Source: a virus
Direction: 5' to 3' (one strand)
Virus record (IMG/VR): IMGVR_UViG_3300025133_000181
Coordinates: 1-48,437 of that record
Length of the DNA: 48,437 nucleotides
Shown: positions 551 to 19,328 of the stretch, in pieces
How positions within the stretch are numbered: the first letter of the stretch is position 1
How the letters are laid out: the number at the start of each line of letters is the position of its first letter
The notes under the pieces: model-generated
What the model saw: the letters and a program-made list of their open reading frames with translations, nothing else
What the model was told of the DNA's origin: nothing
The model's database searches: none
Translations under genes and position numbers: made by a program

Positions 551-2032
551 TTATGGTTCAGAACTTGCTCCTTTGTTGTGAACTAATACTCCACCTGCAT
601 AATAAATATCCAATGGTTCTACATCAAAGTTTATCACTTCTACTTCACCATCTATCCATTCTACAGAATCTATATTCACAATTTCACCCAAAAAATTTAA
701 TAATTTCATACCTTCTTTTAATTCACGAGCAGTGTTCCATCTCCACTTTTTATCTGCATATGTAAAAAGGTCATGTTCCCTCGTAACCTTTAAATAACCA
801 TTATTTATACTATAATATCCATCCATATAATCATAAAATAAATTTTCTACAAATGCTGTTTTTTTATTTCTCGATACCAATATTTCTAAATCTTCACCAT
901 CCAATGGCCTCATTGTAAATGATTTCCACTCCAAATATCCCAAATCTTCATCTGGAAGTCCAGGTAAATCTAACGACATTACTTCATCTCCAACATTTAT
1001 TTCTTCTATTGGTTTAGAAGTATTATCTGCCATAAGTATTAAAGTTCCTGGTAAGAAACATGCAATTGCAAGACCACCATAAGTATCTTGTATTTCAACT
1101 GTTTTTGTAATAGCCGTGTTGTATCTTGTCGCGTGGTCATTAAATCCATCACTCTGTCCATCATCGTGATACTTTCCTGTAATGGTTACATCTGTATCAC
1201 TCATATGGGCACCTTCCCACCTCTGAAATCTTACCGTATCTAATGATGGATTTACTCCACCTACAATGTTAGCTTCAAATTTTAATTTTAAAGTCTGTGT
1301 CACTCCAGCAGAACCACTCGTGTAAAAATCTTCTCTAAATTCTGTCCAGTCTGTTCCTGTTCCGGTATTCGTATAAGTATTTTGATGATAACTACCACTA
1401 ATAGTAATATCAAAATTTCCATTTCCTGCATTCGATGATTTTCCAAGAGTACTAATTTGATAAGTAGAATTTCCTTGAACTGTAAATGATTGTTCAATAT
1501 ATGCACGATCAGTTTCAAATTCTACTGCACTACCAGTTGCTCCACTTGTGTTTTCTGATACCGTTCCACTCTTAGTCCAATTATCTGGTGTTGCTGCACT
1601 TATCCAATTTTCAAATTCTGGATTAGTAACTAAGTTACTTTCCAACGTACCCGGCGTAGTATTATCTGATATTGCACCTGCATTGTATTGAGTAGTAACA
1701 TCTTCAGTACCAGACATATTAAATAGTGATGCGTTACTGGTAGTCCAAGTAAAATTATCAGCCCTTGCCGCTATACGAGATGCAAATGATGAATTTGCAT
1801 TAGTAAAGGTCATTGTATAAATTTCGTTGGTTTGTTCATCCACGTATGGATAACCATCCAAAGCATTATCAACTGCACTTATATAAAAATCACTAAGACT
1901 TGACTTGCCAGTTGAACTATCTCTGGCACAACTATTTAAACTTGTTTTAGAAGTGTAATCGGAATTATCTACGGCAGTTGCTCTACCGAGTTTTCCTAAT
2001 GATAGTTTAGTTCCTGCTGTTGGTGTTGCCAA
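551..2032 (-). CDS. Tail fibre-like protein with inserted CBM-like domain and C-terminal Hint domain
   Basis: This 493-residue protein has three parts. Residues 1-110 and 278-318 match the small protein encoded at 4830-5318 (shared LGKLGRA, FASRIAxR-xNFTWT and TITGKxHxxGxSDGFNDHxTxYNT). Between them, residues 131-273 form an insert starting NLVTNPEFENW, the opening typical of CenC-like carbohydrate-binding modules. Residues 325-486 are a Hint (hedgehog/intein) domain: block A CFLPGTLILMADNTSKPIEE with Cys325, block B TREH (His420) and block G LVHN (His485-Asn486). Only seven residues (KGASSEP) follow the Asn, and the +1 residue is Lys, so normal splicing is not possible; N-terminal cleavage or transfer remains possible. 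The start is TTG at 2032, chosen because GGAGAAC stands about 7 bases upstream and no ATG fits. Virion function is inferred from context. Confidence 0.82.
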   Translation of the reverse strand: MATPTAGTKLSLGKLGRATAVDNSDYTSKTSLNSCARDSSTGKSSLSDFYISAVDNALDGYPYVDEQTNEIYTMTFTNANSSFASRIAARADNFTWTTSNASLFNMSGTEDVTTQYNAGAISDNTTPGTLESNLVTNPEFENWISAATPDNWTKSGTVSENTSGATGSAVEFETDRAYIEQSFTVQGNSTYQISTLGKSSNAGNGNFDITISGSYHQNTYTNTGTGTDWTEFREDFYTSGSAGVTQTLKLKFEANIVGGVNPSLDTVRFQRWEGAHMSDTDVTITGKYHDDGQSDGFNDHATRYNTAITKTVEIQDTYGGLAIACFLPGTLILMADNTSKPIEEINVGDEVMSLDLPGLPDEDLGYLEWKSFTMRPLDGEDLEILVSRNKKTAFVENLFYDYMDGYYSINNGYLKVTREHDLFTYADKKWRWNTARELKEGMKLLNFLGEIVNIDSVEWIDGEVEVINFDVEPLDIYYAGGVLVHNKGASSEP

Positions 2033-2036
2033 AAAA

Positions 2037-2043
2037 GTTCTCC
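2037..2043 (-). promoter_or_regulatory. Ribosome binding site that fixes a TTG start
   Basis: Read on the minus strand, GGAGAAC lies about 7 bases (from GGAG) before TTG at 2032. There is no ATG in frame near this site, and the following residues align with the start of the paralogue at 5318, so the TTG start is well supported. Confidence 0.65.
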
Positions 2044-2106
2044 AAAAAAATTCGCGTGGAAAAGACGATTTATCGTAAACTACGCGTCCCGTTGCGTGTC
2101 CTTAAC

Positions 2107-2118
2107 ACTAATAAATAT
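2107..2118. promoter_or_regulatory. ACTAATAAATAT motif, copy 1
   Basis: Plus-strand ACTAATAAATAT (minus strand ATATTTATTAGT) about 75 bases upstream of the TTG start at 2032. It is one of seven similar sites before leftward genes. It resembles the T4 late promoter core TATAAATA, but that core would face rightwards; function is unproven. Confidence 0.35.
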
Positions 2119-2162
2119 TATATGTGCAAGAAATTTCCGTTTTTCAGGATTTTGCGCGATAT

Positions 2163-2179
2163 ATAGTGTTACACACTAT
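2163..2179. other. Perfect 7-bp inverted repeat (hairpin)
   Basis: ATAGTGT-TAC-ACACTAT between the glycosyltransferase stop (2203) and the next leftward gene. CGAT/ATCG flanks can extend the stem around a two-base bulge. No T-run follows on either strand, so it is not a classic terminator; an mRNA 3'-end stabiliser, processing site or operator is possible. Confidence 0.45.
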
Positions 2180-2202
2180 CGTGTACCCCGGATCAATATA
2201 TA

Positions 2203-3216
2203 CTACTCATTATATATTTCTAAATATCGTTTAATCCACTCATCCTTATTATCATATTGTCTACAATAATCCCTCAATCCATCCAAATGTCCCTGTCTTT
2301 CTTTCTCTGATAACTCTGATATATTATCTAATTGTTCATCAAATTCTTTCTTGTCAAAAGCTCTGAATGGATATTCATAGTTTGACAGCCAATCTTTTTG
2401 TAATATAGGTAGTTTTCCATAATCTAATGCTTGGAATATAGAATAACCGAATGGTTCATGTAGATGACAGCTATGAGATATTCCCCAATCCTCTCTATCA
2501 AAGAACCTATGTATGTTCTTATAGTTAAATTGATATAATCTTGTTTTTTCAAATTTATATCCACATCTTTCTTTCCACCACTTCCAATCTTCTAAATCGG
2601 TAAATGCGTATGAATCAATACCTTCTAAGAAATGTGGTGATTTACGGGTTTCCATGCGTGCCGCATATCCTACTCTATTACTCATACATACTTTTTTATT
2701 TTGTGTAAATTCATAATAATTTGGTATATCAATAATATCTACTTGGTCATGTAAAGGAATTTTATCCAAACCAATCCACATAATTTTCTTAGCTATCTGT
2801 GCAATTCTTCGTTCCCACGCTCGATTTGCTGAAAAATGCATCAATTTAGGTAATCCCAAATGAAAACCGGCATTTAAAGATAATTGAACTGATACATGAA
2901 TACATACCGAATCAATTTTATCTTGATTATTTTCTATTATCTTATGTGGTGTATAATATCCGTGTAAGATATGAATTTTACGGGCATCTCCCGCGATTTT
3001 TTCAAAATCTTTTGGATTATCTCCTTGCCACATAACTTCTATTGGACTATCGAACTCTACTTTATCATTCCAATCTGGTCTACGGCGATGAATTAGTAAT
3101 TTGGATGGATGATTAAGTTTAGGGGCTACTTCTCGTAACCAATTATTAACCCAAACATCACTTCCACCATATACTAAAGAACCACCTCCTGTGGCATAAT
3201 AAACATCATAACTCAT
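2203..3216 (-). CDS. GT-B fold (GT4-like) glycosyltransferase, copy 1
   Basis: A 337-residue protein that looks like a retaining glycosyltransferase of the GT-B fold. The key segment is EPFGYSIFQALDYGKLPI at 254-271, which matches the Glu-containing donor-binding motif of GT4-type enzymes. The segment GYAARMETRKSPHFLEGI at 183-200 starts the C-terminal nucleotide-sugar lobe. The N-terminal lobe has the glycine-rich loop YATGGGSLVYGGSDVWVNNW. It is a clear paralogue of the protein at 23426-24583, sharing these motifs, the WVxNWxR segment and the (Y/D)YPFRA motif. Donor and acceptor sugars are unknown. It sits between two Hint-ended tail proteins, with one-base TAATG coupling to the upstream Hint gene, which suggests that it glycosylates virion proteins; modification of the host surface is the alternative. 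Confidence 0.75.
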   Translation of the reverse strand: MSYDVYYATGGGSLVYGGSDVWVNNWLREVAPKLNHPSKLLIHRRRPDWNDKVEFDSPIEVMWQGDNPKDFEKIAGDARKIHILHGYYTPHKIIENNQDKIDSVCIHVSVQLSLNAGFHLGLPKLMHFSANRAWERRIAQIAKKIMWIGLDKIPLHDQVDIIDIPNYYEFTQNKKVCMSNRVGYAARMETRKSPHFLEGIDSYAFTDLEDWKWWKERCGYKFEKTRLYQFNYKNIHRFFDREDWGISHSCHLHEPFGYSIFQALDYGKLPILQKDWLSNYEYPFRAFDKKEFDEQLDNISELSEKERQGHLDGLRDYCRQYDNKDEWIKRYLEIYNE

Positions 3217-4340
3217 TAACTCTTACCATGTACATTGTGCATTAAATAACCGCCTCCAAAATAAACATCTAAATTTTCTACATTTAAATTAACTGTTTCT
3301 AATGGTTCATTTACGAACTCAACTGTTTCTATTGTTTCAAACTCATTGTTTGTTTTAAATAACTTATCACCAAGTAATAAACTGGCTGTTGTTTTAAAAT
3401 AATAACTACCATCTCTTATTATAAAAAATGGATGTTCATATGTTGCCTTTAAAGAACCATTCACTAAATAATAATTATCATAATAATCAAAATAAATGTC
3501 CATTACTCTTGCACTTGCTGGTGTAACTCGATTTATCTCTTGAATATCATAATATGCAGTTGCCCATACTGAACCAGGTGGGTTTCCGTGTGGTGTTCCA
3601 CTCCAAGCTGACCAAGTATCTTCTTCATCAAAATCTAATGGCATACCAGGAACAGTTGCTGACCTTATCATATCTCCTATATTCACATCTTCTATATTTT
3701 TTGTAGTTCCGTCTGCCATTGTTATAGGTGTTCCTATTCCAAGACAACCAACACCACCATATTGAGAATAATTAGAACCATAAAATTCATCTAACCGAAT
3801 TGGATGTGATTGATAATTCTGTGCTGATGATGCTGAACGAGGTCCTCCTTGAAACCAATCAAAATTAGGTTTACCTGTTACATCCGTATGAACATCTCCT
3901 GCAATTGATGAGAAGTCTTGATATAACTCGTGTATATCTGCTTTACTGGTGGCCGCAACTCCCCTCTCAACATTTATATCAGAAAAAGACATAGATTTAT
4001 CTTGTCCTATTGTTGGAAATATTATTGAACCTGATCCTGTTCCTTTAATTCCAACACTAATAAATTCTCCTGGAGCCGGTTTACCACCATATTGATATCC
4101 CCAAGAACCACTTGAATAATTTTTTCCTCGTGCCTGAATTGATGCAGAATAAATTGTATGTCGTCCAGATTCTCCAGTAGGATCAGTAGTATAATATCTC
4201 CCAAGAAATCCACTACCCACACCAATAGAATGAGATCCTGGTGCTCTCATTGTTAAACTGCCAGTTGTTCGGTATTCAAATCCACCACCACCATCATAAA
4301 TTGTTAGTCCTAATATTTTAAATCCATCTTGAATGGCCAT
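3216..4340 (-). CDS. Tail fibre-like protein with C-terminal Hint domain
   Basis: A 374-residue protein. Residues 1-195 are Gly/Ser/Tyr-rich and include the phage fibre-type phrases KSMSFSDINVERG (115-127) and PIRLDEFYGSN (180-190), resembling the SFSDI/ISLSDYY segments common in marine myovirus tail proteins. Residues 199-369 form a Hint domain: block A CLGIGTPITMADGTTKNIED with Cys199, block B TYEH (His303), and block G YLMHN (His368-Asn369), followed by VHGKS to the end. As in the other two Hint proteins the C-extein is a stub of five residues with no Cys/Ser/Thr at +1, and there is no room for a homing endonuclease. One-base TAATG overlaps join it to the S74 gene upstream and the glycosyltransferase downstream. 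RBS AGAGGAAAG supports the ATG. Confidence 0.8.
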   Translation of the reverse strand: MAIQDGFKILGLTIYDGGGGFEYRTTGSLTMRAPGSHSIGVGSGFLGRYYTTDPTGESGRHTIYSASIQARGKNYSSGSWGYQYGGKPAPGEFISVGIKGTGSGSIIFPTIGQDKSMSFSDINVERGVAATSKADIHELYQDFSSIAGDVHTDVTGKPNFDWFQGGPRSASSAQNYQSHPIRLDEFYGSNYSQYGGVGCLGIGTPITMADGTTKNIEDVNIGDMIRSATVPGMPLDFDEEDTWSAWSGTPHGNPPGSVWATAYYDIQEINRVTPASARVMDIYFDYYDNYYLVNGSLKATYEHPFFIIRDGSYYFKTTASLLLGDKLFKTNNEFETIETVEFVNEPLETVNLNVENLDVYFGGGYLMHNVHGKS

Positions 4341-4810
4341 TATCTTTCCTCTAACGACTTTATTCTATTTGATAAATCCCCTATAAGAGTTTGCTGTTCT
4401 TTTATGGCTTCTACTAATAACGGTACAACCTTTTCATATGCAATTGCTTTGATTCCATCTTCACGAATTTGAACTACTTCGGGTAAAACCTTTTCTACTT
4501 CTTGAGCTATGAGTCCTACATCATGACCTTTTTCTTGTTGTATCTCAGTTGATTTTTCATTCCAATCAAATGTAACACCTCTAATTTGTTGAACTTTAAA
4601 AATGGCACTTTCTATCGGTCTGATATTATCTTTCAAACTTATGTCTGAAGAATAATATGCAGTGATATTTGTAGTTACATATGTTTCGCCTGTAACATGC
4701 AAAGCAACCAAAGGATCTGCATCCGCGCCAATCATCACCTTATCTTCAACTCTGAGACTAGTATTAGCTGTCGTTGGTTTTGTTGTACTTGTTGTTAAAT
4801 AATTTGCCAT
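4340..4810 (-). CDS. Stand-alone S74 (intramolecular chaperone) domain protein
   Basis: A 156-residue protein that is mostly a Peptidase_S74 / endosialidase-type auto-cleaving chaperone. In known S74 proteins this domain trimerises, helps the fibre fold and then cuts itself off through a Ser/Lys dyad. The motif SDISLK at 55-60 gives Ser55 and Lys60 at the expected five-residue spacing. It is followed by RGVTFDW (77-83), VGLIAQEVEKVLPEVV (98-113), the helix KVVPLLVEAIKEQQ (127-140) and a C-terminal coiled coil. The part before Ser55 is only 54 residues, so there is almost no fibre to release. It may be a short fibre tip or a chaperone acting on a neighbour. The S74 end of the giant fibre gene upstream has the same layout. 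Confidence 0.85.
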   Translation of the reverse strand: MANYLTTSTTKPTTANTSLRVEDKVMIGADADPLVALHVTGETYVTTNITAYYSSDISLKDNIRPIESAIFKVQQIRGVTFDWNEKSTEIQQEKGHDVGLIAQEVEKVLPEVVQIREDGIKAIAYEKVVPLLVEAIKEQQTLIGDLSNRIKSLEER

Positions 4811-4829: not shown

Positions 4830-5318
4830 TTAACCTGCGTCACCATAATTAAAATTATCTGACTTATTCGTATTATAACCTGTTACATGATCATTAAATC
4901 CATCACTGAATCCTGCCTCATGAAACTTTCCTGTAATGGTTACCGTATCTAACCCCGGAAATCCACTTGATATTGTAATTGTCGCTGTATAATCTTGGCT
5001 ACCTCCAATTGTAAGTAGATTAAAGTCATCAGTACTTTCAGTCCAAGTAAAATTTTGGAATCTTCCCGCTATACGAGATATAAATAAACTACCAGGACTT
5101 GTAAAGTTCATAGTACCCGTAGTTGTTCCAGAATTTCCATCATCTGGATTAAGAGTCATACTTGCAACAGTTCCTGCATCAAAATGACTCATTTTTGTTA
5201 GTGTTCCAGTTGAACCTCTACCGTCTGCAGCCAATTTTGTTAGTGTAGTATAATTGGCACTCGATCCAACCGCTCTTCCCAATTTTGCTAATAATAACAT
5301 ATCACCTGGATCTGGCAT
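4830..5318 (-). CDS. Small fibre-like structural protein (minimal paralogue of 551-2032)
   Basis: A 162-residue protein homologous to the two ends of the fibre part of the 551-2032 product: LAKLGRAVG at 10-18, FISRIAGRFQNFTWTES, and VTITGKFHEAGFSDGFNDHV near the C-terminus. It lacks both the CBM-like insert and the Hint domain, so it shows the bare domain. It is beta-rich by composition (Thr/Ser/Gly) and has no signal peptide. The ATG at 5318 is inside the last codons of the giant fibre gene (17-base overlap) with a strong AAGGAGAT site, so translation is probably coupled. Function in the tail is inferred from neighbours. Confidence 0.75.
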   Translation of the reverse strand: MPDPGDMLLLAKLGRAVGSSANYTTLTKLAADGRGSTGTLTKMSHFDAGTVASMTLNPDDGNSGTTTGTMNFTSPGSLFISRIAGRFQNFTWTESTDDFNLLTIGGSQDYTATITISSGFPGLDTVTITGKFHEAGFSDGFNDHVTGYNTNKSDNFNYGDAG

Positions 5319-8300
5319 CTTTTATCTCCTTTACTTCTTGTTTTAATTCATCTATTTGTTCTTGTTGTTCTTTTATTGCTTCTATTAATAATGCAGTCAT
5401 ATTTCCATATGATACTGACTTATGACCAAACCGATCACTATCTTCAATTTCATTAGTACTAACAACTTCAGGCACGATATCCTCTATTTCTTGTGCTATA
5501 ACTCCCATTAATCTTTTATCAGATGCACCTTCATCAGTTCTTCTAAAAGTAACACCTCTCATTTTTAAAACTTTACTCAATGGTTCAGTAATAGTTTCTA
5601 TATCTGCTTTAACTCTAATATCCGAATAAGCAGCAACATCATATTGTGCGTATATAGATATATTTGAAGCTTGTCCCATAACATCAAGTGGATAATCTGG
5701 TGTGGTATCGCCAATCCCAATCTTTCCAGAAAAGTAATTATAATCTTCACCTTCTGTATAAGCTCCATATTGAACAGCATCACCATCACTATGAGTAGTT
5801 AATTTTAACCCGTAAGTTATTAACGAGTTGTCCGCTTGGCTGTTCTCAAGGCCCTCTGTTGATATACTTCCACTAAAAGCAGTTATTGTAATATGATGTT
5901 CGTCTTGTGAAGATTGGTTGGCCTGGAACTCATCAGTAATATGTACTTTCCCCTGTACACCAACCAGACTACCTGAATAATGTTCAGTAACCGATCCACC
6001 TTGGCTAGTATCTCCAAGCTGATCTGCATCTAATTGTATATTACCTCGTACTCCTATCAGTTCTTCGGGATTAAACTGCATTTGATAGGTCATCGTACCA
6101 GTGACATCTGTATCATATCCTATCCACTTAGTTAACCTCAGTGAAGCTTGATCTGTGACAGCCCGTAGTTTTGAATTAAATCCACGATATGTACCGGTTA
6201 AATTGGCATTCGACCCTCCAGAATATAAATCCACATAGGTATCAGCTTCTATTGCAGTTGCATCCGCAGCATGATCAATTTCAATAGTCTGTCGCCCTAT
6301 AATTGGTGTTATTAAACCTACACCTGATGCATCATATAAATTTGATGCAAGTATCTGGCCAGGATATACACCATCATTTAAAGATGATCCTATATGCCAA
6401 AGGGATTTACCAGTATTATTAGATCTCATATACCAAGCATTAAGTGCACCATATTTTCCTACAATTCTATGACTATCAGTTCCATAACTGGATCCATCAG
6501 ATTCCAAGGCCACCGAAAATGGATTCACCTCAATTGTTAATCCAGTTTCAGTACCAGTTGTTATTGAATTTGTACCAGCGGTGGTTTTAAATACCATTCC
6601 AGTACCGCTATAAAATGCTATCCTACCTGTTTCCCCGTCATTCCCCAATACAGAATCACCGAGTAACAGAAAATCTCCCCAACTAAGGTCTGCATCATGA
6701 TATGGAGTGCCTGAAGCTGGTGTAAACAAATAACTCCCTGCCCCTTGGCCCAGGACATCTGGGCCAGTTATGACTACATTATGTGCGGATATATTCTGGT
6801 TGCCCCCACCAGTTTTAACTGTAGCACCTTGAATAGTAGCATTTGCATTAACAGTTCCCTCAAAATTTCCATTGGTAAGATAAACATCTCTACCATATAC
6901 ATTACCACTTGACGATACATGGAAATTAGATGAACTTACTTCTATATTCCCATTTGAAGCACTAATAAATGCTGTGCTCGGAGCTCCCAGTAGAAAATCA
7001 CTCGAACTAACGAAAAGTTTAGGAGTTCCACCAGTATCAAATTTTAAGAATTGATATTGATCCCCAACTCTAAAAATTTGACGACTGAAATCATCTCGTG
7101 TTATCCAAAAACTTCCCGTAGCGTTTTCTGCCGAACTATTAAGTTCCCCATGTGGACCAAAATACATTCCTAATGCACCACTACCATCTATTTGAACTTC
7201 ATCTGTTCCTGAATCAAGTGTTATGTTAGTTCCCGAATGTAATTTGGCAGTTGCAATTGTCCAACCACCTGATCCACCTATGTAACCAGTAGCTGCCCGT
7301 ATTACTCCCGCAACGTCTGCATCAGTTGCAATTAATCCACCATCCTTTTCAACTCTAAATGGAGCTGATCCTGCAGTACCGTGACCAACCCATATTCTAT
7401 AATCAGAATCACTGGCATCTATTTTAATTATATCAGTACCAGTTCCTGCAAGTATTCTTCCATTCTCCGCATCTAAAGTTATAATTCCACCATTACCAGC
7501 TAATTTATCTGATTCTATTCTCCATCCCCCAATATTACCTATACTTGAACTTATTGAACCAGACATGAATACATTACCATTTGTATCTAATGTAAATGCA
7601 CCTGCTCCGGCGTTCAGACTACCATCATTGGCCAAGTAGAAGTTTGATGAACTTATTGCTATATTACTATTTGAACCACTTATATATGCACTTCCTTCAT
7701 CTCCCAATATGAAAGTAGAAGAACTCATTATTAAAGTATTACTTCCATCATACTGGATTCTTTCTCCTGTTGCCTTTCCGGCTAAGAATTTACCAGTACC
7801 ATCTAAATACAAACCGTTACCAGAATTATAAGCCGATGGTGGTGTTGCTCCAAGTGCTATTTTACCATCATTTGCAGAAGAATCAATAACTATTGTTGTT
7901 GCATCTAAACTAAATAGATTTGATTTCATTATAACGGCACTGGCCGCTTGGTTATATTGAATCTTATTACCAGTATGATTACCGGCTAAGAAATCACCTG
8001 AACCACTTAGGAATATTCCCGAACCACTTATTGATTTTGGAACAATTTCTCCCATTGCTATAGTTCCACCAGCAGATGATGAAACTCTCAAGTTGGTAGT
8101 ATTTAAATCATATAAATCTGATTTTATGTCAATGGATGAACCACCTGCATTAAATCTAAAATAATTTTCTGCACTCCCATAAAGTAAGAAATTTCCAGCA
8201 CCATCCATATAGATACCTTGACTTGAACCTAAAACATTACTATTTGCTGTAGCACCCAAAGTGATTTTATTATTTGTTGGTGTTGAAGCATCAGTTCCGA

Positions 8301-11300
8301 CAATATCTAATCCTGGAGTATCTAATTCAAAGTTTTCTGATTTTAATTCTAACTTATCACTAACATCAAATCTAAGGTAATTATCCGCATCTCCATATAC
8401 TTGGAAATCTCCATTTCCATCCATATAAATACCTTGAGTAGATGCAGATACCGAAGATGGTCCCGCACTTGAACCCAATCTAATAGTTCCGTTATTAGTT
8501 CCACTATCCAATATCATTGTGGTGGTCTGTAAATCAAATGTATCTGCTGCTATATCAATGGCTCCACCACTACCACTAATATAATTGGCATGATCTCCTA
8601 TATAGAACTCTGATGTTTTTAGTATAATATTATCATCGGTAGCTCTAAGATAACCAGTATTGGCCGCACCTGCTTTAATTAATACATTACCACTTGAATC
8701 TACATAAAATCCAGTATCGGCATCGGCAATGTCATTAACATCTGTCAAAGATCCAAGTGATATAGTTCCACTTGTACCAGTTAATGTAAAGTTTTGAGAT
8801 GCTATATCCATACCACCACCTGTGGTATATCTTAGATAATTATTTGAATCCTTTTGTAAATTAAACTCACCACTACCACTTAAAAAGATTCCAGTATCAT
8901 TAAAATCTTTCGGAATGGCTTTTCCCATTGCAATAACACCACCATTAGATGATGATATGTGTTGTGTGGAAGTTAGTAAATCAAAAGTATCAGATTGTAT
9001 AGTTAGAGTACTACTTCCATCAAAATCAATTCTATTACCACCACCTACACCAGCTCTAAACTCACCACTATGATTCATATAAATACCAGTACCACTTCCA
9101 CGAGTTGCTGCATCTGCATCAGAAGTATCTAATGCTATAACACCGGCTGAAGTAGTTCCTGCAATGTATAATTTTGGTGCACCTGCACTTCCACCACCCT
9201 TTAGTGTAAATGTTCTTGATGCAATCTCCATTGCATTAGTACCATCAAATCTAATATAATTGCTAGCGTTTTTCTGTATATTGAAAGCACCACTACCACT
9301 TAGGAAAATACCAGTTGAACTTAAATCAGATAACGATGCTGAACTTGCTCCAAGTGCAATCATACCACCATGTTCGGTTGTTATATCTATTTTACTCGTA
9401 TCAATTACTAAATTTGAAGTCCTAACACTTAATGCGGAAGAAGCAAACTTCATATATGATGGACTAGCAACGGTTGTGGCAGTTCCAATTCTAAAATTTC
9501 CACCACCATCTACATAAAATCCCTCACCATCATCCACAGAAGTTGCAGAACCTAATGTCAAGTAATTACTTGTATCAGTTCCACTATCACCACTTAATGT
9601 TAAACCTGTGGTTTCTAAATAAAGTTTTGTAGTTCTTATATCAAAATCACTACCATCAAATGAAATCTTTTTATTTGCAGCATTATAAATGTGAAATTCA
9701 GCAGTACCATTATCACTACCAATTAAAATACCAGCTTGTGCAGGGCTTGCAAATGTTGGTGCACCAACTTGTAGATAAGAATCACTTCCATTATCCACCA
9801 ATTTCATTCTGTAACTATCTTTTGTTCCAAATCCTATTTGAGATGTAGAACCACCAACCATTGTAAGTCCGTGAGCTGCACTGGTATTGTAACCCAAACT
9901 CATTGACTTTTCAGTTGATGATATTTCTATATCTGTCGCATCTAAATGAAATTCATCAGTAGTCATATCAATATTAGATGCTGTAATATCAAGATGGGCT
10001 GAAGCTATAGATAAATCTGTTCCATCAAATTTAATATATTCTGTTGAATCACCAACATGGAATTCAGTAGTTCCTGCTTGATTGTGTAACCAAAACCCTG
10101 CAGTAGTATCACTAATATTTTCCTTTGCACTTCTAATCGTTCCACCATAGTTACTACCAGTCATCTCAATACCTTGACCACCAGTACTACCGAGTTTCAT
10201 ATATGCTTGAGTGGATGCAGAATAAGCTAATTCAATAGCTCCGTTTGCAATACTCATAGACTTTTGAGTAGATGATAATTGTAAATCACCACTTGCATCT
10301 AATTGGAAAGTATCTGTCTTAATATCAACTCCATCATCAAAGATAAAGTAATTACTTGAATCCTTAACAAACTCTGCTTGTGGGTTGTTGGAATCCATAC
10401 CAATTAGAATACCAGCAGTATCTTTACCCTCATCACCAAAATCATCTTTACTACCCATAACCATATATGCATCAGTTCCGTCTGTTTTTAGTTTTATATC
10501 ATTAGCACTTCCAGAATTAATTGTTATGAATGGATTTGAGTCTCCTTTTAATACAATCTTTTTACCACCTAAACTCATAGATGCATGAGTGCTAGAAATC
10601 TGTACATCTCCGTCACCAGCGTCTAATTCTAATTTTCTTGTTTTTACTTCGAGTTCATTATCATCGAATTTGATGAAATCGGTAGAATCCCCTATAACAA
10701 ATTCTGCATCAGCGTTATTATTTGCTAACCAAAATCCTTCAGTAGTATCTGCTGCTGATGTTTTACCACTTCTAATAACACCTAATGTTGCACTACCTGT
10801 TATTTGTACATCCTTTCCAAGAGTACTACCGACTCTTAGATAAGAAATACCATTACTTGCTCTTCCTAACTTTAATGTTCCATCTGCAAAAGACATAGAA
10901 TGTTGAGTTGAAGATATTTGTAAATCACCCGTATCCGCATCTAATTCAAATTCTCTTGTTTTAATGGTCAAATTATTATCATCAAATTTAAGATAATCTG
11001 TTCCATCACCCACTACAAATTCCGCATCAGCGTTATTATTTGCTATCCAAAATCCTTCAGTAGTATCACTTACACTTGTTTTCCCACTTCTAATTGCCCC
11101 TACCTGATCTGAACCAGTAATGTATATTGCTTTAGTTGAGGTTGCCCCAATTCTTCCCCATGAATTAGTTGCATCATATGATTGGAAAATTATATCCCCA
11201 TCACCAAACGACATTGATTTATTAGTAGATGATATTTTTAAATTACCACCTCCGGCGTTTAATTCTAATTTTTCAAGATTAACACGTAAATCATTTCCAA

Positions 11301-14300
11301 GATTACCACCACTACCAGTTAAATGAAGATAATTAGTTCCATCTCCAACTCTCCACTCTGCATCTGTAAACCAATAATTGTTATTATTTATATAAATTCC
11401 ATCTTGTGTTCCAGAAACATTTCTACCAATAGAAATTTTTGCTCCTGTTTCTATTCCACCAGCTAACGTTGCTACATGAAGAATACCGTGAATAGATCCT
11501 GTCATTGCATGTAAAGCACCTTTGAAAAATCCATTTTCTGTATAGATACCAAAACCCGGTTCTTCATCTCCGTATAGATATGCAGAACTTAAACCACTTA
11601 AATCACCTATTCTTGTTCGTAATTGTAAATCATAAACACCACTACCAGTTCTCTCAACAATATCCATATATGGTGTTGAAATATCATTTGGATTAGCGTT
11701 CATTAAAATATAACCACTTGATACATCATCTGCTGGTGCATATACACCAGTTGAAACAAAAACTTGACCTTCTTCATAAGTTTCTGGAGTTGAAACTAAT
11801 CCCGCTAAAAATTCATTATCTGTATTTATAACATGAACATCTACACCATCACTATGTGCCGCGGCTGTAGTATCATGAAAATCTCTTACAACAACTAAAC
11901 CACCACCAATAGAATGAGATACAACTTTCATTCTTTCATCATCTATCTTCAATATAGATTGGTTTGCGTAACCTGTACCAGTACTTAAAGTTATGTCAGT
12001 TACACTATCATCGATTGCACCATCCAATGTTCCTATAACTGAACCTGTAGATACAGTTTGACCAAGACCACGTTCAACATATATCTCCCCCGCTAATCCA
12101 TCAGGGTCTACAGCTCCCATATTTGCTGCCGCAATAGAGGCTGAATAAGGTGAACCTGCCGCTGTATATCTTTGTGAACCAGATATATATAAATACTCTA
12201 CCGTAAATCCAGTACTATTAACCTTTTTAGATTTTAATATTTCACCTGCCCTAAATCCACTTACATTTGCAACACTCATCGTTGTACTTGCTGCTGACAT
12301 AGATGGAACTCCACATATAATACTACCACTTACATCTTTCAATGACTCAAGTGTTGTTGAATTTGCAACCATTAATTGTCCACCAACAACATTCACACTT
12401 TCTTTTTCGAATACAGTAGTTGCTAATGTTCCTCTAATTCTTGCATTTTCAAATTCTGCAGTACCATTTCCAAGTGAACTTATTCTCCAACCTTTAAGTC
12501 CAGTTACAAAATCTGATGTTTCTATTGAACCACTAGCCTGTAGAATAAGTCCTACTTCACCTTCAGCAAACTGTTCACCCATACCTGCCGCTGGAATACT
12601 TCTAATTTGAGTTCCTGTAAGTTCCCATCCAGCAATTTTATTTCCTTGTCCACCAAACATAGCAAGAACATCGCTAAATCCATCATCATCATGTTCACTT
12701 CCAGATGTTGTTCCATCATACATTTTTATACCAAATTCATCTCCCGCGGCTTCACTTATCTCACCAATTCTAACTACTTCTTTATTCGAGGCGTTAAAAA
12801 TTTGTATTCTTCTATTTGTAGAACTTATATCAAGATTAGTAGTATCTAATTCAAAGTTTGGAACTTTCATAAAGATACCAGATGTTAACATTCTAACATA
12901 TTGATCGTTAGAAGTTCCAACCGTATAATCAAATTCTGGTGACGTTCCGTCCATTCCCATTATTAATCCAGCAGTAGTTGTTTGGTCAAATGTAGTCTTA
13001 CCACCAAACTTCAACATCTTATCAGTTCCATCTGCGTGTAAAACTATTGCTCCACCACTCGAAGCGGGATCACCAATACTCATACTTGCGTGTAATGATG
13101 AGATTTGAATATTAGAAGCACTTACTTCCATATTTCTTGTTTTTATATCAAGTCCGTCTGTACTATCCCATCTTAAATAATCTTTACTATCTTTTGCTAA
13201 TTCAAACTTTGGAACTCCTGTATCCATTCCGATAATAATACCAACAGTTGATTTATCGTAATGAGTAAAAGAAGTTTTACTTCCCATAGTCATATATGAA
13301 TCAGTACCATCAGTTTTTAAAGTAATTGGATTAGTTGTACCTACTTGAACATATGGTGTGGCTGCCCCTTGTAATTTAATTTTACCATCACCAAGGCTCA
13401 TAGATTTATGGTTTGATGATAATTGTAAATCACCAGTATTCGCATCTAATTCAAAATTAGTAGTTTTAATATCTACACCACTTGAACCATCAAAAATAAA
13501 ATAATTACCTGAATCCTTAACAAATTCTGCTTGTGGGTTGGTCGCGTCCATACCGATAATAATACCAGCAGTTCCACTTCCCTCGTGTGTGAAACTACTC
13601 TTACTTCCCATAACCATATAGTTATCCGCTGTTCCACCCTGTAACGTTATTGAATTTGAACCAGTAGCACCAACTTGTATCTTAGAGTTTGCACCATCTA
13701 ATGTTATATTAGCCAATGCTCCTGGTACACCACCTAAACTCATAGAAGCGTGTGTTGATGAAAGTTGTATATTAGTAGCTGCTAATTCTAAACCTTGTGA
13801 AAGTTTTATGTCAAAATTTGAACCATCATAGGATATGTAATTTGTAGCACTTCCAGCAAATTCGAATTTTGGAACAGTTGAGTCCATCCCAATAATAATA
13901 CCTTGTGTGGATTGGTCAAAATGAGTAAAGGAAGATTTACTTCCCATAACCATAAAGTTATCATTAGCACCACCTTGTATAGTAACTCGTTTAGTAGCAT
14001 CTAAACCAACCATTATTTTTGCATTTGCTCCATCCATTACAATCGTTTGGTCATTAAGTGACATAGACTTCTGTGTAGATGAAATTTGTAAATCACCATC
14101 GTTTGCATCAAGTTCAAAAGTGGTAGTGTCTATATCAAGAGTACTACCATCCATTTTTAAATGTCCATTAGTTCCTACGAATGAAACCTTTGGTGTTGTA
14201 CCTGTTACTACTCCAAAAAATAGTCCTGATTCACCATAATTTTTATCTGGAACAGCTACACCTGGTTGTATTGCAATATATGGACTATTATTTCCACCTT

Positions 14301-17300
14301 TCATATATATTTCTTGGTCTGTTCCCAACGACATTGAAGCTTCTGGAGAAGATAATTTAAATCCTGTTGCACTAATATTCAAATCAGTAATATTAAGATC
14401 AACATCAGAACCAGTAATTGCAAAACTTCCATTTTCAAATACTATACCACCATCTGCATCACCAAAACGGAAATTACCATCCCCATCCATATAGATACCA
14501 CTACCAGTAGCTAAACTAATAAAGTCTGCATCTGGTCCCATTCTAAATGTTGGTGTATCCTTACCTTCGATAATAATTTTACCCCGTGGATCTGCTGCGG
14601 TGTGTCCAAAACTCATAGAAGATTCTGCCGTAGATACTTGAATGGTTGATGCAGAAACTTCAAGTTTACGAGAAGCTAAATCAATTTCTCCACCATCGAA
14701 TTTTATATAATCAGTTGTATTACCAACATGAAATTCTGGGTCTGTATCATTATTTGCTAACCAAAATCCAGCAGTTGTTGATGTTGCAGATGTTTTGCCT
14801 GTTGCTATATATCCATAATCTGCGTGACCTTGTAAAGTAATTTGTTTAGTAGATGTTGAACCCACCGTAACTTTACTATTTGCTCCATCAAGTAAAATTT
14901 TCCCCTCACCTAACGACATACTTGCATTAGTTGAACTAATTTCTATATTAGTTGCATCTAATTCTAATGAACCAACTTTAACATCAAACACATTTGATGT
15001 TGCATTATATTGTATATGGTCTCCACTTGCACTACCAATTAATAAATTAGAGTCTCCATCTACATAAAAACCATTACCACTATTATAAGCAGTTGGTGGT
15101 GTTCCCCCCATTGCAATCTTACCACTATTCGTGGCTGAATCTATGACGAGTTGAGTTGTTGCTAAATTAAATGTATCACTTTTTATATCAATTGATTCGG
15201 CTGATGCGTCAAACTTAAAATAGTTAGTAGCACTTCCATAAAGTAAGAAATCACCAGTACCATCCATATAGATACCTTTATTAGTGCCTGTAATACTTGT
15301 ATTTGGTGTTGAACCAAGTGAAATATATCCACTATTAGTTGAACTATCTATATCTAAATTTGCTGTATCAAGTTTGAAAATGGCTGTTTTTATTTCTACA
15401 CCATTATTCGTATCATATCTTAAAAAATCTTGTGCTCCATCACCAACATAGAATCTTGGATTTCCACTATTATAACCCAGTTGGATTCCTTCACCTGCAA
15501 AAGTATGAGTGTTTATGGATATTTCTGCATTGTCTCCGTTTGCATTAAGTCTGATTCCTGCATCACCTGAACTTGCAAGGTTCGTTGAATTAATTGTCCA
15601 TCCACCAATATAACCAGCAGTTGCAGTAACCGTACCTGCCATTGTAACATCGCCTGCATTAGTAAGATGAAAATTAGAAGAACTTATCTCTATGTTTCCA
15701 TTGGATCCACTAACATATTGTGATTGTCCACCTAAAAAGAATCGCGGGGCCTCTAACCGAATACTACTACCACTTAATGTAGTTGCTCCTGTGCTATAAA
15801 TTGCTAAATTTCCACCACTTCCACTAACATAATTTGAACTATCACCGAGGTAGAAATCCGGTGCCTTTAGAGTTATTGAACTACCACTTATATGTGCATC
15901 TTGTGTTTGTATTGATAGAGATGAACCATCAAATTTTAAAAACTCAGAAGAACCGTCACCAATATAAGCTCTTGGTGTTCCACTATTATAATCTAATTGT
16001 ATTCCCTTTGAACCAAAAGTTGCACTGCCAATAACCAATTCCTTAGCTGAAGAATCCATATACATACCACTTTGTGATATTTGAGTGGAATTAATTGTCC
16101 ATCCACCAATAGATGCAGATACGAATCGTGCAAGTCCAGTTGCAGATATAGAAGATGATGCATTTAGAGTAGTTGATGCAACTCCACCGATTGTAGCAGG
16201 TGTCTTAATACTATTAACCGTAATATCACCTTCAACCGTCAAAGTATCATCTATGAATTGTAAATAATTTCCACCACCTTTATCACCTAATAAGATAGCA
16301 GAACCCGTAACTAATCCACCAGCAGAAACTTTAAATCTACTTGATGAAATAAATGATGCTGGATCTGATGTATCTGCGGAAGCAGATATTCTCCAATATG
16401 GTGAATAAGCTAATGATGCACTTTCTATATCTGCTCCACCAATTCGTCCAGTAGATGCTGTTATCTGTCCTTCAAAAACTGCTCCACTTGCAAATAACAC
16501 ACCACTTTGACTTACAGAAAAATTAGGACCAAACTTAACATAATACTTTCCAGATGTTGCTGTATCTCCCTCACTCGGTGTAAAATCTATATAATATTCA
16601 TCTCTTCGGAGATCAAATGCTGCTGAAGTATCACTACCAGGTCCCTTTGTAGTATGATAAAGTGCTGCACCTACTGCGTCTAATGTTGCGTTACTACCAC
16701 TTAACTTACCATCTACAATTTGCCAATCACCAATGTTACCTGCATCGGCTGTAATAGTTCCTTGCATTACAACATCACCATCGGGCTGTACATGGAAATT
16801 GGATGAACTTATTTCTATATTATTTCCACTACCACTTATAAATTGTGAATTTTCATTACCAACAAAGAATGCATCTGCTCTAATATCAAGATCACTTGGA
16901 TTGGTTCTATATCTCAAATAACTTGTAGAACTACCAAATAATTCTAATCCAACTCCATCATATTCATCTGTTATATCAGATAAAACAGAACCACTCCACA
17001 TCATAAATCCAGGTCCACCAGTTCCTGCCGAACCACTTGTAAATCCAAGATAACCAATAGACCGAACAAATCCAGAACCAACTCCAGCCATTTCTATACC
17101 ACCACCAATAGCATTTCCAATAAACATAGAACCACTTAATACATTATCATCCCCAAGTATGTAAGAATTTCCACCTTGGAATGTGGATGCACTTACATGA
17201 GATATTGTATCTGCTATATTATTGTTTACATCATAAAACTCTGCTATAAATTCATAATCATCTGGTCGTTCTTGTGAAAGTGGTGGAACTGGTGCAACTA

Positions 17301-19092
17301 CCCTAATCCAATCAGGAGAAAATCCTGTATCTGCTACAGGAGTTATAGATACATCAGAAATATTCCAATAACCTGACGGTGCACCAAATTGTAAAACTGC
17401 AGTTCCATTTCGTAGTGGTTGAAATACTTCTTCAACTATTCCAAAATCTAATCTCTCCGAAACAGAATCAGGAATTGTTAAAAATCCGCCTTTCGATTCT
17501 CCTGGAGGAGTCATTTGATATCCAAAGTCACTTCCATACTCATGATTGGATTCAAACGCAGATCCCGATAAAAATATTCCGAGTTCTGCCTTATTTACAG
17601 TATTACCATCACTATCAACTGTTTTAAGTGACTTTCTGCCAACTATTCTTGCCCTAACTGCATATTCTATATCTTTAACAAATGTTATTGGTAAAGAACC
17701 TGTGGTTTGGGCCTTTAATATTGAATTTTCTGCGAGACTTGATCCAGATATATATACCGAATCAAGTAAAATACTTGAATCTCTGGTTAATGTAGTATTA
17801 CTTCCACTCTCCCAATATGTATTAATCACGTCCTGAGTATCAAAGTAACCAATTCTACGAGAACCGGCTGGACTATAAATATCATATAACAACTCTGGAC
17901 TTTCTATCGGAGTATCTGCTATTTGTTCAAAATCACCAAACGCATCTTTATTACGAGAATATAATTTTACTCTATGAACATCACCAGAAAATGTTCTCAT
18001 CTTAGATATTCTTACATCTGCAAATGAACGGAAATTAACCGTACTCGTTGAATGAGTAGGTGCGGGTTGAAATGACATTGTATATGCCGTATTATCAAGT
18101 GGAACTATTACATCTCTCTGTGTATTTCCTTCTGGATATCGTGTATCTGTTATAACAAATTCTTTAGTAGGAATTAAAGTTGATTCATTTTTAACATCTT
18201 TAATGGTAGTTTCAAATGTTCCAGGAAATTCATGATATGATTCTGTTACAAATGTTGATTTTGGCTGTGGGTTATTTACTTTAAAGGTTGCCCCAATGTG
18301 TCTTGCATCAAATCCCACCTCTCCACTATCAAGGTTTATTGTAAATTTTTCTACTTCAGGAGATGACCGTCTTACCCGTCTGCCTCTACTATTAAATCCT
18401 GCATTCTTTCCACCGCCACCATATATCTTTGAAGTGTATGAGTTCTGTAGTTGTTCTACAAACGCGCCTGGTGCTTCTTCCTTTATGGGGGAAGTACCTA
18501 CTGTTCCTGGTAATGGATCTCCCGATACTGTTCCTATACTTTGAGTTACAGAACCAGTAGGATAAGTAGTTGTTACAAACCCCTTTACAATTTCACCAAC
18601 CCACATTGATGGTTGTTTATAAAAATAAATTGGTTCAGTATTTACACCAGCCCCACTAATATAAATTTTAGTATACCAACGAACATTATAAATGTCCAAC
18701 CATTCTACTGGAACATCAACTTTATCTGGACTCAATTCACCAACAAAATACATAGTGGCATCACCAAATAAATCAGGATCATCATACACTTCAATAGAGA
18801 CTCTACGAGATGTTCCTTCAAGATAATTAGGTATTGCCTCTGTATAAACTACCTTACCACTTGCATCATTTACTATTTCAAATTTTAATTCTACATTGTC
18901 TTTTAATAACGGAGAACCACCTACTAAAAATGAACTTCGGCCTTGAGTGATAATATCTGGAACTTCAACAACATTAAAATATTGTGAAATTGGCGCACTA
19001 TCATCAATAAAGACATCTAAATCTTTTAATCCTTGATATCTGTTATAACGTCTTAATACTGCCAATGAATTCTCCCGAATAGATTTATTCAT
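5302..19092 (-). CDS. Giant tail fibre protein (4596 residues) with C-terminal S74 chaperone
   Basis: The largest gene here, 13.8 kb. Residues 1 to about 700 are mixed beta-rich sequence. About 720-4085 is a long array of related beta-type repeats with recurring phrases (I/L)SS(T/x)xxSMSxG, GI(Y/F)MDGxGDF, YI(R/K)FDG, FELDxxxGDLQISS and YISGSxGNIEISSSNFHL; SMS phrases occur about 12 times. The last 107 residues are an S74 auto-cleaving chaperone starting SDIRVK (Ser4490, Lys4495, codons near 5625-5608), followed by RGVTFRR, MGVIAQEIEDIVPEVV and a coiled-coil end. In S74 fibres, cleavage before this Ser follows trimer folding. It is probably a very long trimeric host-binding fibre. The ATG has no evident Shine-Dalgarno, and an ATAAATAT motif lies directly before it. 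Confidence 0.88.
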   Translation of the reverse strand: MNKSIRENSLAVLRRYNRYQGLKDLDVFIDDSAPISQYFNVVEVPDIITQGRSSFLVGGSPLLKDNVELKFEIVNDASGKVVYTEAIPNYLEGTSRRVSIEVYDDPDLFGDATMYFVGELSPDKVDVPVEWLDIYNVRWYTKIYISGAGVNTEPIYFYKQPSMWVGEIVKGFVTTTYPTGSVTQSIGTVSGDPLPGTVGTSPIKEEAPGAFVEQLQNSYTSKIYGGGGKNAGFNSRGRRVRRSSPEVEKFTINLDSGEVGFDARHIGATFKVNNPQPKSTFVTESYHEFPGTFETTIKDVKNESTLIPTKEFVITDTRYPEGNTQRDVIVPLDNTAYTMSFQPAPTHSTSTVNFRSFADVRISKMRTFSGDVHRVKLYSRNKDAFGDFEQIADTPIESPELLYDIYSPAGSRRIGYFDTQDVINTYWESGSNTTLTRDSSILLDSVYISGSSLAENSILKAQTTGSLPITFVKDIEYAVRARIVGRKSLKTVDSDGNTVNKAELGIFLSGSAFESNHEYGSDFGYQMTPPGESKGGFLTIPDSVSERLDFGIVEEVFQPLRNGTAVLQFGAPSGYWNISDVSITPVADTGFSPDWIRVVAPVPPLSQERPDDYEFIAEFYDVNNNIADTISHVSASTFQGGNSYILGDDNVLSGSMFIGNAIGGGIEMAGVGSGFVRSIGYLGFTSGSAGTGGPGFMMWSGSVLSDITDEYDGVGLELFGSSTSYLRYRTNPSDLDIRADAFFVGNENSQFISGSGNNIEISSSNFHVQPDGDVVMQGTITADAGNIGDWQIVDGKLSGSNATLDAVGAALYHTTKGPGSDTSAAFDLRRDEYYIDFTPSEGDTATSGKYYVKFGPNFSVSQSGVLFASGAVFEGQITASTGRIGGADIESASLAYSPYWRISASADTSDPASFISSSRFKVSAGGLVTGSAILLGDKGGGNYLQFIDDTLTVEGDITVNSIKTPATIGGVASTTLNASSSISATGLARFVSASIGGWTINSTQISQSGMYMDSSAKELVIGSATFGSKGIQLDYNSGTPRAYIGDGSSEFLKFDGSSLSIQTQDAHISGSSITLKAPDFYLGDSSNYVSGSGGNLAIYSTGATTLSGSSIRLEAPRFFLGGQSQYVSGSNGNIEISSSNFHLTNAGDVTMAGTVTATAGYIGGWTINSTNLASSGDAGIRLNANGDNAEISINTHTFAGEGIQLGYNSGNPRFYVGDGAQDFLRYDTNNGVEIKTAIFKLDTANLDIDSSTNSGYISLGSTPNTSITGTNKGIYMDGTGDFLLYGSATNYFKFDASAESIDIKSDTFNLATTQLVIDSATNSGKIAMGGTPPTAYNSGNGFYVDGDSNLLIGSASGDHIQYNATSNVFDVKVGSLELDATNIEISSTNASMSLGEGKILLDGANSKVTVGSTSTKQITLQGHADYGYIATGKTSATSTTAGFWLANNDTDPEFHVGNTTDYIKFDGGEIDLASRKLEVSASTIQVSTAESSMSFGHTAADPRGKIIIEGKDTPTFRMGPDADFISLATGSGIYMDGDGNFRFGDADGGIVFENGSFAITGSDVDLNITDLNISATGFKLSSPEASMSLGTDQEIYMKGGNNSPYIAIQPGVAVPDKNYGESGLFFGVVTGTTPKVSFVGTNGHLKMDGSTLDIDTTTFELDANDGDLQISSTQKSMSLNDQTIVMDGANAKIMVGLDATKRVTIQGGANDNFMVMGSKSSFTHFDQSTQGIIIGMDSTVPKFEFAGSATNYISYDGSNFDIKLSQGLELAATNIQLSSTHASMSLGGVPGALANITLDGANSKIQVGATGSNSITLQGGTADNYMVMGSKSSFTHEGSGTAGIIIGMDATNPQAEFVKDSGNYFIFDGSSGVDIKTTNFELDANTGDLQLSSNHKSMSLGDGKIKLQGAATPYVQVGTTNPITLKTDGTDSYMTMGSKTSFTHYDKSTVGIIIGMDTGVPKFELAKDSKDYLRWDSTDGLDIKTRNMEVSASNIQISSLHASMSIGDPASSGGAIVLHADGTDKMLKFGGKTTFDQTTTAGLIMGMDGTSPEFDYTVGTSNDQYVRMLTSGIFMKVPNFELDTTNLDISSTNRRIQIFNASNKEVVRIGEISEAAGDEFGIKMYDGTTSGSEHDDDGFSDVLAMFGGQGNKIAGWELTGTQIRSIPAAGMGEQFAEGEVGLILQASGSIETSDFVTGLKGWRISSLGNGTAEFENARIRGTLATTVFEKESVNVVGGQLMVANSTTLESLKDVSGSIICGVPSMSAASTTMSVANVSGFRAGEILKSKKVNSTGFTVEYLYISGSQRYTAAGSPYSASIAAANMGAVDPDGLAGEIYVERGLGQTVSTGSVIGTLDGAIDDSVTDITLSTGTGYANQSILKIDDERMKVVSHSIGGGLVVVRDFHDTTAAAHSDGVDVHVINTDNEFLAGLVSTPETYEEGQVFVSTGVYAPADDVSSGYILMNANPNDISTPYMDIVERTGSGVYDLQLRTRIGDLSGLSSAYLYGDEEPGFGIYTENGFFKGALHAMTGSIHGILHVATLAGGIETGAKISIGRNVSGTQDGIYINNNNYWFTDAEWRVGDGTNYLHLTGSGGNLGNDLRVNLEKLELNAGGGNLKISSTNKSMSFGDGDIIFQSYDATNSWGRIGATSTKAIYITGSDQVGAIRSGKTSVSDTTEGFWIANNNADAEFVVGDGTDYLKFDDNNLTIKTREFELDADTGDLQISSTQHSMSFADGTLKLGRASNGISYLRVGSTLGKDVQITGSATLGVIRSGKTSAADTTEGFWLANNNADAEFVIGDSTDFIKFDDNELEVKTRKLELDAGDGDVQISSTHASMSLGGKKIVLKGDSNPFITINSGSANDIKLKTDGTDAYMVMGSKDDFGDEGKDTAGILIGMDSNNPQAEFVKDSSNYFIFDDGVDIKTDTFQLDASGDLQLSSTQKSMSIANGAIELAYSASTQAYMKLGSTGGQGIEMTGSNYGGTIRSAKENISDTTAGFWLHNQAGTTEFHVGDSTEYIKFDGTDLSIASAHLDITASNIDMTTDEFHLDATDIEISSTEKSMSLGYNTSAAHGLTMVGGSTSQIGFGTKDSYRMKLVDNGSDSYLQVGAPTFASPAQAGILIGSDNGTAEFHIYNAANKKISFDGSDFDIRTTKLYLETTGLTLSGDSGTDTSNYLTLGSATSVDDGEGFYVDGGGNFRIGTATTVASPSYMKFASSALSVRTSNLVIDTSKIDITTEHGGMIALGASSASLSDLSSTGIFLSGSGAFNIQKNASNYIRFDGTNAMEIASRTFTLKGGGSAGAPKLYIAGTTSAGVIALDTSDADAATRGSGTGIYMNHSGEFRAGVGGGNRIDFDGSSTLTIQSDTFDLLTSTQHISSSNGGVIAMGKAIPKDFNDTGIFLSGSGEFNLQKDSNNYLRYTTGGGMDIASQNFTLTGTSGTISLGSLTDVNDIADADTGFYVDSSGNVLIKAGAANTGYLRATDDNIILKTSEFYIGDHANYISGSGGAIDIAADTFDLQTTTMILDSGTNNGTIRLGSSAGPSSVSASTQGIYMDGNGDFQVYGDADNYLRFDVSDKLELKSENFELDTPGLDIVGTDASTPTNNKITLGATANSNVLGSSQGIYMDGAGNFLLYGSAENYFRFNAGGSSIDIKSDLYDLNTTNLRVSSSAGGTIAMGEIVPKSISGSGIFLSGSGDFLAGNHTGNKIQYNQAASAVIMKSNLFSLDATTIVIDSSANDGKIALGATPPSAYNSGNGLYLDGTGKFLAGKATGERIQYDGSNTLIMSSSTFILGDEGSAYISGSNSNIAISSSNFYLANDGSLNAGAGAFTLDTNGNVFMSGSISSSIGNIGGWRIESDKLAGNGGIITLDAENGRILAGTGTDIIKIDASDSDYRIWVGHGTAGSAPFRVEKDGGLIATDADVAGVIRAATGYIGGSGGWTIATAKLHSGTNITLDSGTDEVQIDGSGALGMYFGPHGELNSSAENATGSFWITRDDFSRQIFRVGDQYQFLKFDTGGTPKLFVSSSDFLLGAPSTAFISASNGNIEVSSSNFHVSSSGNVYGRDVYLTNGNFEGTVNANATIQGATVKTGGGNQNISAHNVVITGPDVLGQGAGSYLFTPASGTPYHDADLSWGDFLLLGDSVLGNDGETGRIAFYSGTGMVFKTTAGTNSITTGTETGLTIEVNPFSVALESDGSSYGTDSHRIVGKYGALNAWYMRSNNTGKSLWHIGSSLNDGVYPGQILASNLYDASGVGLITPIIGRQTIEIDHAADATAIEADTYVDLYSGGSNANLTGTYRGFNSKLRAVTDQASLRLTKWIGYDTDVTGTMTYQMQFNPEELIGVRGNIQLDADQLGDTSQGGSVTEHYSGSLVGVQGKVHITDEFQANQSSQDEHHITITAFSGSISTEGLENSQADNSLITYGLKLTTHSDGDAVQYGAYTEGEDYNYFSGKIGIGDTTPDYPLDVMGQASNISIYAQYDVAAYSDIRVKADIETITEPLSKVLKMRGVTFRRTDEGASDKRLMGVIAQEIEDIVPEVVSTNEIEDSDRFGHKSVSYGNMTALLIEAIKEQQEQIDELKQEVKEIKDARSR
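6840..16930 (-). repeat. Long array of diverged internal repeats in the giant fibre gene
   Basis: The coding repeats described for the giant fibre are visible at DNA level too, as recurring segments such as TTATTTGCTAACCAAAATCC near 10720 and near-identical ones near 11035 and 14755. Units are roughly 80-110 codons and are mosaic rather than exact tandem copies, which suggests growth by duplication and recombination. Edges are approximate. Confidence 0.7.
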
Positions 19093-19157: not shown

Positions 19158-19328
19158 ATGAAGAAGAAATATTCTTTTACAATAGAAGATAGACTAATGG
19201 ATTGGTTTAGGCTCTATGTTAGGGAAGAGAGCACAACTATGAGTGGTGTACTTAATCAACATATTTTAAGTTTGAAAAGGGAACGGGAAGGACGCCCCGC
19301 TCCAAAGAATGTGTTACATTCTAACTAA
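19158..19328 (+). CDS. Small ribbon-helix-helix-like DNA-binding protein
   Basis: A 56-residue plus-strand frame, ATG at 19158 and TAA at 19326-19328. The sequence begins with a basic strand (KKKYSFTIEDRLMDWF) and continues as two short helices separated by the TTMSGVLNQHILSLKR segment, matching the Arc/CopG/MetJ-like ribbon-helix-helix layout: a strand, helix 1, a turn with Ser, helix 2. Such proteins bind DNA as dimers and act as repressors. An AAGGA site lies about 10 bases upstream and TATAAA at about 19136 could be a -10 box. It is convergent with the recombination gene (8-base overlap of ends) and divergent from the giant fibre, so it could control the fibre gene or late transcription. 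Assignment is by pattern only; homology should be tested. Confidence 0.6.
   Translation: MKKKYSFTIEDRLMDWFRLYVREESTTMSGVLNQHILSLKREREGRPAPKNVLHSN

Follow-up and report, generated by a model that had tools for sequence, protein, structure and literature searches.

Terminal Hint domains of the bacterial intein-like type in phage tail-region proteins: a candidate C-terminal autoprocessing module

Three proteins of one viral genome end in Hint domains

Hint domains are known from protein splicing, hedgehog lipidation and toxin processing. We describe here the Hint domains encoded in a 48.4-kb IMG/VR virus record (IMGVR_UViG_3300025133_000181; all 48,437 nucleotides were analysed and are referred to as the window), where they form the C-terminal parts of three proteins, A (551-2032), B (3216-4340) and C (37134-39998), all on the minus strand. 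Protein A (493 residues, TTG start) comprises an N-domain, into which the predicted structure places a carbohydrate-binding-like beta-sandwich (about residues 145-272, window positions 1217-1600), followed by a Hint domain recognized by motifs, profiles and model (residues 325-486, 575-1060; Cys325, T417-R-E-H420, His485-Asn486) and a stub C-extein, KGASSEP (554-574), with Lys at +1. Protein B (374 residues) begins with a tail-type part that ends in QYGGVG and continues into a Hint domain (residues 199-369, 3234-3746; Cys199, T300-Y-E-H303, His368-Asn369) and the stub VHGKS (3219-3233), with Val at +1. The initial annotation of the window had placed both Hint domains, their catalytic residues and their stubs correctly to the residue, and had rightly noted that neither protein offers Cys, Ser or Thr at +1. 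Its count of two such tail proteins fell short, as it had overlooked protein C (954 residues), in which PKD and InlB-type repeats precede a Hint domain (residues 806-953, 37140-37583; Cys806, T871-F-D-H874, His952-Asn953) and a stub of a single Lys before the stop (K954, 37137-37139). It had likewise missed a Hint-less paralogue of A, the size of the class to which these proteins belong and the basic character of the +1 residue.

We refer to A and B as tail proteins on the strength of their context, namely a giant fibre gene (5302-19092), a gene for a Peptidase_S74 protein of the tail-fibre intramolecular chaperone type directly upstream of B (4340-4810, minus strand) and a baseplate-wedge gene (41468-43477) near C, together with the match between the Hint part of A and B and a PHROG for virion structural proteins. 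The Hint-less paralogue of A's N-domain (162 residues; 4830-5318, minus strand) stops six aligned residues ahead of the predicted scissile bond of A, so the Hint has been added to a protein that was whole without it and constitutes a removable C-terminal module. Rfam and tRNA scans gave no match.

The domains resemble bacterial intein-like domains

The profile search that the initial annotation had proposed bore out the assignment: A matched the Pfam profiles Hom_end_hint (E 5e-6) and PT-HINT (E 4e-5) and B matched PT-HINT (E 2e-5), all below the gathering scores, and relatives of the class clear these scores easily (Intein_splicing 116, AXH 130, Hint 72 and Hom_end_hint 64 bits). A loose motif order matched by A and B was reproduced in none of 9000 shuffles of A, B and C, with C itself lying outside the spacing that the regular expression allowed. 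An AlphaFold2 model of A built from 18 sequences gave a confident Hint domain (ten-residue blocks between 331 and 490 at a predicted local distance difference test score, pLDDT, of 70-94) and the beta-sandwich at about residues 145-272, with the N-terminal 140 residues not resolved. When the modelled Hint was compared with the PDB, the top matches were bacterial intein-like (BIL) domains, namely BIL2 of Tetrahymena BUBL1 (6y75, 6tmm) and a Clostridium thermocellum BIL (2lwy), followed by the DnaB and gp41-1 inteins; hedgehog (1at0) came only at rank 50. The likeness to BIL domains had been suggested by the initial annotation. The beta-sandwich matched the carbohydrate-binding modules CBM16, CBM4, CBM22 and CBM61 and, taken with the BIL-first ranking, gives A the look of an adhesin that binds carbohydrate and carries a tail of the BIL type.

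The Hint fold with blocks A, B and G that marks the superfamily is found here, and A, B and C each carry the traits of type-A BILs, i.e. Cys1, a C-terminal His-Asn and no Cys, Ser or Thr at +1. The fold ranking favours BILs, with the described members of which a common ancestry may exist; the tree discussed below contained no reference BIL sequences. Three other identities were ruled out. An intein would have a host-protein continuation as C-extein and a +1 nucleophile, neither of which is found; the PT-HINT of polymorphic toxins would be followed by a toxin domain, whereas here a stub of 1-7 residues leads to the stop; and the hedgehog reading fails because a terminal His-Asn is present and nothing lies beyond the stub.

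Terminal Hints form a widespread class

Judged from sequence searches, phage proteins with a terminal Hint turn out to be a widespread and nearly undescribed class. A motif of the A/B type retrieved 17 viral contigs, every one with a terminal Hint, and had no match among 84,980 prokaryote species, and a pattern requiring HNK followed by a stop retrieved 61 viral stretches, there being 59 open reading frames ending in HNK in the loci gathered up to then. Two relatives (L004 and L005) retain both the A and the B gene with the glycosyltransferase gene in between. Among named phages such tails occur in NCTB, with three Hint genes inside a run of tail genes, and in Erwinia jumbo phages, where one protein is annotated 'putative phage tail protein, contains intein domain'. 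Cultured phages with a terminal Hint include the Erwinia phages Y3 and Yoloswag as well as NCTB. NCTB also encodes a stand-alone Hint relative of 153 residues, flanked by tail genes, that has neither Cys1 nor the block-B His (L006:2744-3205). A conserved-peptide search of prokaryote genomes returned a few related Hints; two of them, from Aquimarina mytili (L098) and an Omnitrophota metagenome-assembled genome (L099), are near-terminal with Lys at +1, which means that viruses do not have the class entirely to themselves. We found no functional report on phage Hint or BIL tail proteins in the literature searched, which took in few subscription papers and did not extend to the paper on the Y3 genome; a Dickeya phage paper makes no mention of intein or mass spectrometry.

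Taken together, the loci gave 58 non-redundant terminal Hints for comparison. Cys1 is present in all 56 in which it is readable, the block-B His in 55 of the 58 and His-Asn in every one, in proteins that are otherwise 25-35% identical. Selection tells the same story within C: between the window and L092 the adhesin part has accumulated about 80 substitutions, 69 of them non-synonymous (ratio of non-synonymous to synonymous rates, dN/dS, 1.66), whereas all 149 codons of the Hint are unchanged, and in the other pairs compared the dN/dS of the Hint is 0.13-0.35. The Hint is thus under purifying selection while the adhesin part of C changes fast. A diversity-generating retroelement behind this variable part was rejected because the substitutions are not adenine-specific (AG 16, CT 13, GA 10, TC 7). 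The near-total conservation of Cys1, TxxH and His-Asn argues against the Hint being an inert relic or a structural cap, a stable C-terminal fold that does not react; a few members do lack catalytic residues and the leading copy in the tandem arrays described below is degenerate, but we regard this reading as improbable overall.

The stub is 1-21 residues long and never zero, which fits Asn cyclization, a reaction that needs a residue to release. The +1 residue was Lys in 45 of the 58, Val in 4, Thr in 4, Ala in 2, Ile in 2 and Asn in 1, and never Cys or Ser; the figure of 45 is inflated, since the HNK-stop pattern itself demanded Lys. Unbiased figures come from the mixed stubs found with the A/B-type motif and from a motif blind to the residues after His-Asn, which yielded two sharply distinct sets: the terminal Hints had stubs of 1-4 residues with Lys at +1 in all 11, and inteins, many of them split, had a long C-extein with Cys, Ser or Thr at +1 in 85 of 85 non-redundant cases. 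Many viral contigs (within L101-L208) contain such apparently split inteins, in which a short intein C-part opens the protein and His-Asn is followed by Cys or Ser; several adjoin genes for ribonucleotide reductase and GIY-YIG endonucleases. Ahead of Cys1 the chain is rich in Gly (24% in the ten preceding residues against 8.7% overall, and at -1 in 16 of 37). In four loci (L038, L048, L053 and L093) FFAPPG-type repeats immediately precede a terminal Hint ending in HNK, L038 adding an fn3 domain.

A prevalent +1 Lys raises the question of whether the epsilon-amine of a lysine, be it the +1 Lys or one in a partner, takes over the C-terminal thioester of the adhesin, yielding an isopeptide bond without ATP and welding the adhesin covalently to a receptor or into the virion. 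The Gly-rich tail ahead of Cys1 would suit this, as would the fold of A, whose nearest relative, BIL2 of Tetrahymena BUBL1, is a reported lysine conjugator (PMC8616854). Set against it are the Val of B and its relatives and the Thr, Ala or Ile of others, the inflation of the Lys count over all loci and the fact that a like fold does not prove a like reaction, so that we hold conjugation to be a minority possibility, though the strongest competitor of a simple release.

The stubs themselves bear on a further reading, low-level or regulated splicing, in which the freed amine of the stub would attack the thioester and the Hint would be excised, leaving N-extein plus stub (e.g. ...SIA-KGASSEP). 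The initial annotation had denied this layout normal protein splicing, which was too strong: low-level splicing by this very attack is on record for type-A BILs that lack a +1 nucleophile (PMC4031507). Stubs are also conserved among relatives (KG-S-P in the A-type, VH-K in the B-type), and the Erwinia group carries at +1 a Thr, a usable nucleophile, along with a conserved stub. Yet the gain of one to ten residues would be small, many stubs are a single Lys and the BILs that have been tested mainly cleave, and we therefore consider splicing unlikely as the main outcome.

Some phages carry Hints in tandem

In a mostly marine-looking family (beginning MKGT[FL]FS; 31 loci, some near-identical; e.g. 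L031, L037, L036 and L061) up to four Hints follow one another at the C-terminus, joined by linkers of 1-12 residues that often begin with Arg or Lys. Basic residues at most of these junctions are again in keeping with conjugation to lysine. The first copy is degenerate and has no Cys1, and the later copies retain the full catalytic set. In the tree, copies from different phages group by their place in the array, which points to old duplications after which every copy was kept; that the catalytic set persisted in each later copy through old duplications argues against an inert cap. The same tree separates the terminal Hints, as two large clusters, from the inteins with Cys or Ser at +1, with limited support (146 columns). 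The N-terminal domain of the family had no match in 50,697 phage records; in L055 and relatives its residues 6-34 gave a very weak ATP-grasp match (E 0.06). Genes for 2-oxoglutarate oxygenases (29/115) and SET proteins (11/115) lie among the neighbours of tandem-Hint genes and reach at most 1/115 each beside inteins, a contrast that reflects different genome compartments and not a specific link, as the intein control came largely from replication regions.

A glycosyltransferase-like gene recurs beside terminal Hints

Between A and B lies a gene for a glycosyltransferase-like protein (GT) of 337 residues (2203-3216, minus strand). Pfam was silent or weak on it, and its model is of low confidence (pLDDT 54), its best folds being GT-B enzymes including T4 alpha-glucosyltransferase; the product is probably a GT-B glycosyltransferase, and assignment to a subfamily was given up on so weak a model. 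Members of this GT family lie beside a terminal-Hint gene, or one small gene away, in six records (the window, L004, L005, L007, L013 and L025), across which GT identity falls as low as 40% and the Hint proteins have dissimilar N-parts, and two GT-first searches each led to one record, both with an adjacent Hint.

The initial annotation had proposed that this enzyme supplies an acceptor, i.e. that the thioester is handed to a glycan made by the neighbouring GT. The recurrent adjacency is what speaks for it. As four of the six loci were retrieved via the Hint and the records may represent one lineage, synteny may explain that adjacency; moreover, a GT paralogue in the window (23426-24583) has no Hint neighbour, and the cluster holds many other sugar and modification enzymes, those around A and B in L004 and L005 including a methyltransferase, a radical SAM protein, GT2, GT7, a SET protein and a GT9-like protein. 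We know of no Hint domain that transfers to sugars, and glycan transfer is to our minds the least probable reading.

Elsewhere in the window, a GT25-family glycosyltransferase gene (24576-25442) that could serve to decorate fibres adjoins the GT paralogue. A further gene (19321-22479) combines metallophosphatase and SMC/RecF domains, resembling fused SbcD and SbcC, and adjoins a primase-like gene (22476-23426).

Discussion

On balance we favour the view that A, B and C are adhesin-like proteins of the tail and baseplate region that use a type-A-BIL-like Hint as a C-terminal autoprocessing tail, mainly for release. The initial annotation had envisaged self-cleavage or transfer, an idea that gains support by analogy, BIL2 as nearest fold relative reportedly forming an isopeptide bond to lysine (PMC8616854). 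In light of the conserved Cys1 and TxxH and the BIL fold, Cys1 would attack the preceding peptide bond to form a thioester, which, in proteins with no Cys or Ser at +1 and almost no C-extein, would mainly be attacked by water or by an amine from outside, freeing the N-part with a new C-terminus, and cyclization of the Asn would clip the short stub. Type-A BILs, which have a terminal His-Asn and no +1 nucleophile, mostly cleave (PMC4031507, PMC7664689), and as splicing gains almost nothing with so short a stub, N-terminal cleavage with stub clipping is the likeliest outcome. We infer that the reaction takes place, that cleavage at Cys1 may be timed to tail maturation or assembly and that simple release would prevail over transfer.

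Several observations weigh against this view. Block B reads SASQ in L007, gene 135 of NCTB is without Cys1 and without the block-B His, and L135 and L163 are without His-Asn; such losses imply that catalysis is dispensable in places. Nor does simple release explain the recurrent Lys or Arg at +1.

Comparison with known systems sets the proteins apart. With type-A BILs such as that of C. thermocellum (2lwy) they share the Hint fold, Cys1, the block-B His, the terminal His-Asn and the lack of both a +1 Cys or Ser and an endonuclease; they differ in lying at the very end of proteins from the phage tail region, in stubs of 1-21 residues, in a mostly basic +1 and in sometimes being tandem. BIL2 of Tetrahymena BUBL1, the best fold match of A, is reported to be activated by zinc and to link its N-extein, by an isopeptide bond, to the epsilon-amines of lysines in several substrates (PMC8616854). 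Lysine being its natural nucleophile, the likeness consists of the predicted fold and the Lys at +1, but BIL2 sits between two ubiquitin-like domains and none were found here. PT-HINT domains of polymorphic toxins are similar in profile and unlike in that no toxin domain follows the Hint here. The hedgehog Hog domain is also a C-terminal Hint with no notable C-extein and performs a thioester transfer, but it has no terminal His-Asn, which is invariant here, and carries a sterol-recognition region after the Hint, and its fold matched less well. The Peptidase S74 chaperones are C-terminal self-removing modules of fibre proteins, one of them encoded in the same gene cluster, yet they are unrelated in fold and chemistry and thus functional analogues only.

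The BIL-type Hint is the known part. The architecture, which lacks a real C-extein, mostly has a basic +1, can include tandem copies and is found in adhesins of the phage tail region, is a new variation on it, of which the literature searched gave no functional description. Should conjugation apply after all, which we consider a less probable outcome than release, phages would be using terminal BIL-type Hints as an ATP-free means of welding tails or of covalently capturing the host surface, with the tandem arrays as multi-step versions. Within the collections searched, this large class is almost exclusive to phages. It would supply small catalytic tails for ligating proteins, make the purpose of BIL domains directly testable and bring into the biology of phage tails a step of maturation or covalent attachment.

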